A DNA stretch of 42,227 bases from an uncultured SAR86 cluster bacterium (GTDB lineage: Bacteria > Pseudomonadota > Gammaproteobacteria > Magnimaribacterales > D2472). The notes beneath the pieces are model-generated. The model ran no database searches. It was not told the DNA's origin and saw nothing but the letters and a program-made list of their open reading frames with translations. Where the stretch lies: contig CACNUA010000008.1 in the NCBI GenBank assembly GCA_902623535.1, positions 1 to 42,227 on the forward strand, written 5' to 3'. A program made the position numbers and the translations under genes. Each line of letters starts with the position of its first letter. The stretch's first letter is position 1. Positions 4,066 to 5,421 of the stretch are shown here, piece by piece.

Positions 4066-4142
4066 GCCACCTTAGCTCAGTTGGCTAGAGCAGTTGATTT
4101 GTAATCATCAGGTCGTCAGTTCGAATCTGACAGGTGGCTCCA
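4066..4142 (+). tRNA. tRNA-Thr (anticodon UGU), integration target
   Basis: A complete cloverleaf: acceptor GCCACCT/AGGTGGC, anticodon loop TTTGTAA (TGT), T-arm GTCAG-TTCGAAT-CTGAC, encoded CCA. The gene is intact. Its 3' half, from the anticodon stem past the CCA, is repeated at 5371-5421, which marks it as the target of a past integration event. Confidence 0.97.
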
Positions 4143-4145
4143 TTT
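4095..4145 (+). repeat. Left copy of tRNA-Thr 3'-half direct repeat (attL-like)
   Basis: These 51 bases run from the tRNA-Thr anticodon stem to three bases past the CCA. They recur at 5371-5421 in the same orientation with 47 of 51 identical by my hand alignment. A 3'-half tRNA repeat of this kind is the classic product of site-specific integration into a tRNA gene. Confidence 0.85.
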
Positions 4146-4243
4146 TTTATAAAGCTTATAGAGGTATTGAGATAATACTTAATATCTATGTGCGGTCACA
4201 GTGCAGTCTAAATACATCAAAACTATTCTTTTTATTTCGCACC

Positions 4244-4363
4244 TTACATAAGTAAATTTAAATAATCATCATCTTCCATACTAGCTGCACAAACATAATT
4301 CATGTCTGCCTTTGCATAAGGTGTTATTAAGAAGAGTAAAGGTATCAGTAAGAGTTTTTCCAT
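4244..4363 (-). CDS. Small exported peptide, 39 aa, unknown function
   Basis: An ATG at 4363 opens a 39-codon frame ending in TAA at 4244. The ribosome binding site AAGGA lies 9 bases upstream, in sequence that overlaps the stop of the 116-residue gene, which suggests coupling. Residues 1-19 look like a signal peptide: MEK, a Leu/Ile-rich core, then a PYAKA end giving a plausible signal peptidase site before Asp20. The mature part would be about 20 residues, acidic, with one Cys and an EDDDY run. I recognise no family. It could be a secreted or periplasmic micropeptide, or a decayed gene start. Confidence 0.55.
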   Translation of the reverse strand: MEKLLLIPLLFLITPYAKADMNYVCAASMEDDDYLNLLM

Positions 4364-4372
4364 ATTAGTTCC

Positions 4373-4723
4373 TTAATAATCGATATCTGTTAGCGGGTAT
4401 TTGATTGATTCGTTATTTAACTTTTCAGAATGTTGATTAAGCCAATCCTTTAAATGTAAATCTGCTTCTTTACAAAAATTACTCATAAACGAAGAACTCT
4501 CATCTGCACCATGTTTAGCATTGTAGTCAGCAATAGTCCAAGCTAACTTCCTTCTCTGGAAATCATAGACTTCCATTAGACGCTTAAACTCATTTATAAG
4601 ATTAATGCTTCTAACCTTTTCATCTTCGCCTTGAACAAGAGTCTTAATCTCATGGTGAGTGTCAAAGATTTTATTGAGCTTATCTTCAAACTCCTTTCTG
4701 TCTAAACGGATAGCTGTATTCAT
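4373..4723 (-). CDS. Hypothetical protein, 116 aa, island cargo
   Basis: I do not recognise this product. It has no signal peptide or membrane segment, is rich in charged residues, and looks mostly helical, with heptad-like stretches around 8-60 (RKEFEDKLNKIF, NLINEFKRLMEVYDF). The second half has one Cys and a KDWLNQHSEKLN segment. No clear ribosome binding site precedes the ATG. It lies between the Tp34-like gene (77 bases upstream) and the 39-residue peptide (9 bases downstream) on the same strand, so the three may be one transcript. Codon use looks as AT-rich as its neighbours. Confidence 0.6.
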   Translation of the reverse strand: MNTAIRLDRKEFEDKLNKIFDTHHEIKTLVQGEDEKVRSINLINEFKRLMEVYDFQRRKLAWTIADYNAKHGADESSSFMSNFCKEADLHLKDWLNQHSEKLNNESIKYPLTDIDY

Positions 4724-4800
4724 TTTTTAAAGTGTGGCCTCAATACCAATCGAGTAATTAATATGCAGAGCTAAAACAAGAATGTAATCATATTTTATTT

Positions 4801-5331
4801 TTATCTTCTTGATTTCAAAGCAACCTCTTTAAAAGAAAGACTTTTATACTCAAATTTGTTTTGTTTTAAGAAAAATCCATATTTTTCTTTCCAATCATAA
4901 TGCATTCCTAGCTCACCTTCTTTTGGAGGATTTATATAAATAGTTACATCATATAAATCATCGAAACTTCCAGGCAGTTGAATATTTTGTGCATAGTGTA
5001 AATTATCAGAAATATTAAGATGTGGAATGAGCTTCACATTTATTACTTTTCCCTTATTGTTTTGAATTGTGGCCAAAACATCTAGATAAGGTATAAAGCC
5101 ACCATTTGGTGATCCAGGCGGACTTTTATCAGACCAATTGATGAGCATTTCAATATGAATGTCAGTATTATTTTCGTCAAGAAAATATTTTTTTGGAAAA
5201 ATAGTATCTTTAGGAGCTGCCTCAAAAACAATATTAATTCCATTATCTAGGGTCTCTTTTCCAAAAACTAGTTCATCAGAATTACAAAAAAAGCTTAATA
5301 AAATAACTATGTAAATTGATAATCTTTTCAT
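4801..5331 (-). CDS. Tp34/P19-like periplasmic iron/copper-binding protein
   Basis: The 176-residue product starts with a signal peptide (basic MKR, hydrophobic core to about residue 17). The mature region follows the Tp34/P19 pattern: DIHIE at 57-61, GGFIPYLDV at 78-85, then IPH...LHYA (His104, His112), IQLPG, a Y.VTIYINPP strand and LGMH ending at His144. P19-type proteins bind Cu/Fe in the periplasm and support iron uptake, usually next to an Ftr1-type permease, which is absent here. By my alignment the usual methionine ligand is replaced by His104. The gene is island cargo, next to a TonB receptor across a terminator. Family assignment is from motif memory only. Confidence 0.7.
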   Translation of the reverse strand: MKRLSIYIVILLSFFCNSDELVFGKETLDNGINIVFEAAPKDTIFPKKYFLDENNTDIHIEMLINWSDKSPPGSPNGGFIPYLDVLATIQNNKGKVINVKLIPHLNISDNLHYAQNIQLPGSFDDLYDVTIYINPPKEGELGMHYDWKEKYGFFLKQNKFEYKSLSFKEVALKSRR

Positions 5332-5342
5332 AGTGAAATCTT

Positions 5343-5356
5343 ATCAAAATTTTGAT
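5343..5356. promoter_or_regulatory. Perfect 14-bp palindrome upstream of the Tp34-like gene
   Basis: ATCAAAATTTTGAT lies 11 bases before the start codon of the Tp34-like gene. Its position fits an operator, but an AT-rich palindrome of this size can arise by chance and it does not match a Fur box. Confidence 0.3.
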
Positions 5357-5370
5357 TTACACACTTAGAA

Positions 5371-5421
5371 TGATTTGTAGTCATAAGGTCATCAGTTCGA
5401 ATCTGACAGTTGGCTCCATTT
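5371..5421 (+). pseudogene. tRNA-Thr 3'-half remnant (attR-like right repeat)
   Basis: Starts at the anticodon stem (TGATTTGTAG) and ends past the CCA (GGCTCCATTT). It keeps the TGT anticodon and most of the T-arm but has no D-arm or 5' acceptor half, so it cannot be a working tRNA. There are four substitutions relative to 4095-4145, one of which breaks a T-stem pair. Confidence 0.85.

Follow-up and report, generated by a model that had tools for sequence, protein, structure and literature searches.

In several marine bacteria, genomic islands are added beside a tRNA gene and closed by a repeated tRNA fragment, as described for Ca. Actinomarinales (PMC7771536), for fGI-2 of Methylophilaceae (PMC10872708) and for Alteromonas australica (PMC4119200). 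A small insert of comparable layout is described here in the tRNA-Thr(UGU) gene of an uncultured SAR86 cluster bacterium, on contig 8 of a 1.2 Mb genome that is 71% complete (G000); the window, meaning the whole stretch of DNA that was analysed, covers 42,227 nucleotides. Of the highest-ranking named matches of its MsrA protein, some come from SAR86 cluster genomes, next to other bacteria. The insert is read, with a probability of roughly three in four (0.77), as the relic of a tyrosine-recombinase element that has lost its integrase and its right arm, that is, the presumed integrase-binding repeats of its right end. As in the additive marine islands, a variable cassette lies beside a conserved tRNA gene with a tRNA-fragment repeat at its end, and small size and unknown genes are usual there too. 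Those islands occur in other bacteria and at other tRNAs, whereas the SAR86 case combines an unoccupied site in relatives, a larger version in another and arm-like repeats, the last not being noticed in the accessible parts of those reports.

Three further systems invite comparison. Cis-mobilizable elements (CIMEs) are decayed relatives of integrative and conjugative or integrative and mobilizable elements, 1.2-13 kb long, in which both attachment (att) copies are kept and the recombination genes lost (PMC7563491). The window insert likewise keeps its att copies without recombination genes; CIMEs, however, derive from conjugative or mobilizable elements, and the likeness drawn here concerns the att copies and gene loss alone, no relaxase or conjugation genes having been recognised among the scanned island proteins, in which no search was aimed at them. 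KplE1 (CPS-53) in argW is also a defective element in a tRNA gene with a duplicated core, but it keeps its integrase and its core is 16 nt (PMC2951348). Tycheposons share the border tRNA, the cargo and the marine hosts, and differ in their size of 4-200 kb, against 1.3 kb here (PMC10872708, PMC11389934); of the tyrosine recombinase and border tRNA that mark them (PMC10872708), only the tRNA is present in the window insert. The kind of element is already known, as additive tRNA islands and CIME-like relics, and is here traced in a little-studied group; in the open-licence literature, no title or abstract opening on the tRNA-Thr locus or on SAR86 tRNA islands was found.

The tRNA-Thr(UGU) gene lies at 4066-4142 on the plus strand (ARAGORN), and its 3' part, at 4095-4145, is repeated in the same direction at 5371-5421, 47 of 51 bases being identical (E 2.5e-15 in a search of the genome against itself); when the window was shuffled 100 times by dinucleotides, an ungapped match reached at most 30 of 51. 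The second copy shows no trace of the tRNA 5' half, and the tRNA alone exceeds the Rfam gathering score over 4000-5600. The alignment and the shuffles bear out the half-tRNA repeat on which the original prediction had been built. The copy at 4095-4145 is presumed to be element-borne, and the one at 5371-5421, with four changes, would be the displaced original 3' part. The DNA between them amounts to 1,225 bp and has a G+C content of 30.0%, against 37.6% for the window.

Seven genomes of the genus were searched, six of which hold the msrA-tRNA-Thr locus (it is absent in G002). In two of them (G003 and G005), the tRNA is directly abutted by the right flank, which in the window (5422-5560) lies beyond the right repeat; these are the empty sites that the prediction had proposed to look for. 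At the empty site of G005 (L037, about 3896-3930), a 14-bp tandem repeat stands immediately after the tRNA, perhaps the scar of an earlier event. The second repeat is present in two of the six loci, those of G000 and G006. The G004 site holds a different short sequence with no second repeat, and the G001 site (L036, 5309-5728) about 570 bp of other DNA, also devoid of a second tRNA repeat, with a 139-amino-acid RTX-repeat, lipoprotein-like frame.

The G006 locus measures 5,145 bp from the tRNA to the second repeat and has the same scar. The left 127 bp match the window (4148-4274) at 85% and the right 998 bp at 96.4%; the core copies are 92% alike in the window and 90% in G006, and each right scar carries four differences from the tRNA, none of them in common. 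The additional cargo of G006 comprises an SRAP protein (PF02586, E 2e-49) and proteins of 626, 118 and 156 amino acids, for which no family exceeded its cut-off. This 5.1-kb version supports the prediction that the window insert is the stub of a larger island. No integrase is encoded in the G006 insert, the two PF00589 frames of that genome, of 307 amino acids, lying elsewhere. The same holds for the window, whose insert contains no recombinase, as had been stated; both PF00589 proteins of its genome are 307-amino-acid frames outside the insert and, from their XerC/XerD size, this usual pair would be XerC and XerD. Across 107 genomes of the family, three PF00589 matches are present in 11 and two or fewer in the rest.

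A second line of evidence comes from short paired repeats flanking the cores of related islands. In integrase-bearing islands these repeats are 8-11 bp long. In G004, AAGTCATCA occurs five times in 19.9 kb, two copies near the left core and three near the right core, and in G116 TGTGAACC occurs five times on one strand in 19 kb with the same layout; at each end of both islands, two copies have starts spaced by 11 bp and lie 46-60 nt from the core. In G166, pairs are found on both sides of the core with sequences that differ between the sides. The G006 insert carries GTGCAGTC twice at the same 11-bp pitch, 48 nt past the tRNA (8/8), and the window carries at the same place the pair GTGCGGTC (4190-4197) and GTGCAGTC (4201-4208), on the plus strand, with 7 of 8 bases in agreement. 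No right-end pair was found in the last 200 nt of either insert. These pairs are putative integrase arm sites, binding being suggested by the general plan of such enzymes, for which the KplE1 integrase with its arm-type and core-type sites was used for comparison (PMC2951348).

As a control, the 42-kb window was scanned for an exact 8-bp pair at 11-bp pitch and contained none. Direct repeats of at least 8 bases at any spacing of 6-44 are present in 31 of 281 stretches of 150 bases, so that pitch and place are what counts. The comparison covered 168 distinct tRNA 3' flanks from the fetched loci: where a 3' repeat is known, 5 of 7 flanks have a pair of at least 7/8 starting 38-60 nt past the tRNA, compared with 3 of the 161 others (Fisher p 1.1e-6), many of the controls being short loci unchecked for a second repeat and the related genomes not being independent. 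Of the three control flanks with a pair, one (tRNA-Glu of G043) has leader genes in common with the islands and the other two are rich in A.

Taken together, tyrosine-recombinase integration, as originally predicted, is well supported by the empty sites, the core position and the left arm-like repeats; the far-end tRNA repeat and the empty sites expected of such an element are present and the integrase gene is absent. In the proposed history, a tyrosine recombinase acting from the anticodon stem-loop onward would have inserted a circular element into tRNA-Thr(UGU); the gene would have been restored by the tRNA 3' part that the element carried (4095-4145), and the original 3' part displaced to 5371-5421. 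At the right end of the G004 island, 50 nt separate the end of the arm-like pair from the core, and the integrase frame begins about 100 nt ahead of that core. Since integrase and right arm adjoin each other at this end of related islands, their joint loss is the simplest history; it probably preceded the divergence of G000 and G006 and would have left the P19-like gene beside the right scar. The window lineage may then have lost or exchanged further cargo. Lacking one arm and having changes in its right core, the insert can probably not be excised even with a helper, and it would now be inherited with the chromosome.

The relation between the two inserts deserves separate consideration. The shared right part is 96.4% alike, compared with 95.7% for the msrA and TonB receptor flanks. 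A single insertion in the common ancestor of G000 and G006 is the simple reading of this rather than a proven one, because the best matches over six regions are not mutual (G006 for G000 in 5 of 6, G000 for G006 in 3 of 6), which makes the relatives mosaic. The window is furthermore not a simple deletion of the G006 form, since a 39-amino-acid remnant (4244-4363, minus strand) is not at that place in G006. This remnant opens as a secreted-protein gene of the type found in the islands of G004 and G036 and continues into left-end sequence, a fusion implying that internal deletion gave rise to the window form, whose starting cargo was not identical to that of G006. The window copy is consequently a shrunken or re-cargoed form of a larger island.

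Besides the insecure single insertion and this difference in form, several other points weigh against the relic interpretation. No integrase-bearing element was found in tRNA-Thr(UGU), and the parent is therefore unseen. The pitch and the distance range of the pairs were set after G004 and G006 had been seen, and the former right arm is deduced from two complete islands and part of a third. The integrase-less islands of G025 and G030 lack such pairs, the former at both ends and the latter at the right end, where the outer G036 element has none either.

The best surviving alternative, and still an unlikely one, is a live satellite, normally devoid of an integrase, whose two core copies would be acted on in trans by a phage integrase or by that of another island, so that it is cut out and moved. 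Both known copies lack an integrase, their cores are still largely alike, the site is empty or differently filled in close relatives, and an integrase-less element of G036 keeps arm-like repeats at both ends, all of which would fit. However, the right arm-like pair is missing from both inserts, each scar has accumulated four changes, the insert has diverged as much as the flanking genes, and viral contigs yielded neither close relatives of the P19-like or 626-amino-acid proteins nor the exact left-end 22-mer. For the copy in the window, mobilisation in trans, which the original prediction had offered beside the stub, is thus unsupported, given the absent right pair and the altered right core.

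The viral-contig scans behind this comparison, which detect close relatives only, returned nothing for the 626-amino-acid protein, the P19-like protein or the G004 integrase; the 22-mer was searched there as an exact match, and the 626-amino-acid protein had no match in phage records. A 23-mer from the tRNA 3' end was found in 31 viral contigs, and none of them looked like a free attP, the tRNA-Thr(UGU) being complete in 30 and cut by the end of the stretch in the other (L111). The arm-pair patterns match 15 and 33 viral contigs, which with 16-18 fixed bases and a large collection may be due to chance.

Two separate insertions of related elements into G000 and G006, each decaying later, are very improbable. 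The entirely different scar changes, the differing cargo and the left ends that are just 85% alike, against 96% for the right parts, would be accounted for; but the right arm is missing in both, the P19-like gene stands at equal distance from the scar in both, and the inserts differ about as much as the flanking genes do. Tandem duplication of the tRNA, which had been named at the outset as an outcome that would undo the island, is hardly credible, and the same applies to homologous recombination between the tRNA and a DNA circle that carries one, the 5' half decaying afterwards in either case. In four viral contigs (L108, L114, L116 and L129) the tRNA-Thr(UGU) does agree with the window's in 77 of 77 bases, but a duplication does not import the 1.2-5 kb that the empty sites lack, by which tandem duplication is rejected; moreover, the repeat begins at the same point of the tRNA as those of integrase-bearing islands, and the second copy has no trace of the 5' half. 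In these four contigs the tRNA-Thr(UGU) adjoins other tRNA genes.

To return to the relic and its site, the original prediction had raised the idea of a cargo-swapping hotspot, which holds only weakly. Within the genus the site does vary, with two islands, two empty sites and two other short contents in six genomes, so that the outcome named as contrary to an island, the same three genes in all relatives, is not what was seen. Of the 107 family genomes, however, 82 gave a tRNA match at the E 1e-9 level, and G000 and G006 alone gave an additional, partial copy at that level or better, although for many genomes only eight first-look candidates were scored and weaker copies could be missed. In 20 tRNA-Thr loci from other genera no tRNA-fragment repeat stands out, the best being 23 bases at 87%. 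A tRNA-model scan of three genomes missed a known partial copy and is unfit for counting scars.

The three minus-strand genes first assigned to the insert reduce to two clear ones, of 116 and 176 amino acids, the third being the 39-amino-acid frame, which looks like a fused remnant. The 116-amino-acid protein (4373-4723) has no assigned function; it is 97% identical in G006, has a 27% relative in the tRNA-Glu island of G025 and is helical in single-sequence folding (five models, mean pLDDT, the predicted local distance difference test, of 45.8 to 76.9). The other gene (4801-5331) encodes a periplasmic iron protein of the P19-like type (PF10634, E 1.2e-29, 103.9 bits with a cut-off of 21) related to the solved P19 structure 3lzl (E 4.5e-9), and its start lies 39 bp from the right core. 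P19 is patchy in the family (16 of 107 genomes), and no tRNA 3' repeat was present at seven fetched loci (L282, L287-L292) out of the 14 genomes beyond G000 and G006, indicating that P19 is not in itself an island gene. The 626-amino-acid protein is present in one of 203 genomes of the order, G006 itself. PADLOC returned nothing for four G006 island proteins and a 465-amino-acid protein of the G004 island.

Related islands were picked for cargo or short sequence in common with the G006 insert and form a non-random sample. The 9.6-kb tRNA-Phe island of G004 repeats 52 of 52 tRNA bases, encodes an SRAP with about 80% similarity to the G006 protein, and has a 494-amino-acid integrase (PF00589, E 1.9e-16) adjoining its right repeat. 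Counting G004, five of the 203 genomes of the order have this integrase or a relative of it; in G116 and G166 the relative adjoins tRNA-Phe 3' parts of 50-51 bases, and in G180 and G162 tRNA-Asn 3' parts of 48 and 27 bases, the 27-base one being weak. The core starts at tRNA positions 26-27 in G004, G116 and partly G166, compared with 30 in the window. The G116 integrase gene (L299, 9062-10456) has one in-frame stop, and that island may be decaying too. Islands with short repeats of 21-24 bases occupy tRNA-Glu in G036 and G025 and tRNA-Ser in G030, the last encoding a 26% relative of the 118-amino-acid protein of G006.

The inner G036 element, in tRNA-Glu (L274, 12465-16401), contains nine frames of 50-200 amino acids, none of integrase size, and the single PF00589 match of that genome sits on a different contig. 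All seven copies of TGTAGTCA in this 20-kb locus are near the element's two ends, five at the left and two at the right, which makes it the best candidate for mobilisation in trans, ahead of the window island. A wider reading, doubtful at present, is that SAR86 holds a shared pool of integrase-shedding tRNA islands that may keep both arm sets and ride on integrases of rare relatives or phages, most family genomes having no PF00589 protein beyond the XerC/XerD-sized pair; the window island would then be a damaged member of the pool and the inner G036 element its best candidate. In any case, the empty site, the larger relative and the arm-like repeats reveal a route to a small integrase-less tRNA insert in an ocean bacterium with a streamlined genome. 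A pair of repeats with an 11-bp pitch, roughly 50 nt beyond a tRNA, provides a simple signature for seeking such islands in SAR86 genomes and metagenomes, and may also find islands that might still be moved in trans.

A further observation concerns shared signal peptides. Unrelated proteins open with nearly identical stretches of about 36-48 nt for the signal peptide MKNILLTLMVFG or MKNTLALVLMVFG, followed by IVGC or SFG, the sequence upstream of the ATG being unrelated. With a motif that was chosen after sighting, 17 frames, one of only 18 amino acids, were counted in 7 of 50 sources (L274, L275, L276, L277, L278, L279 and L283), and a short copy of the stretch also lies within the G006 insert.
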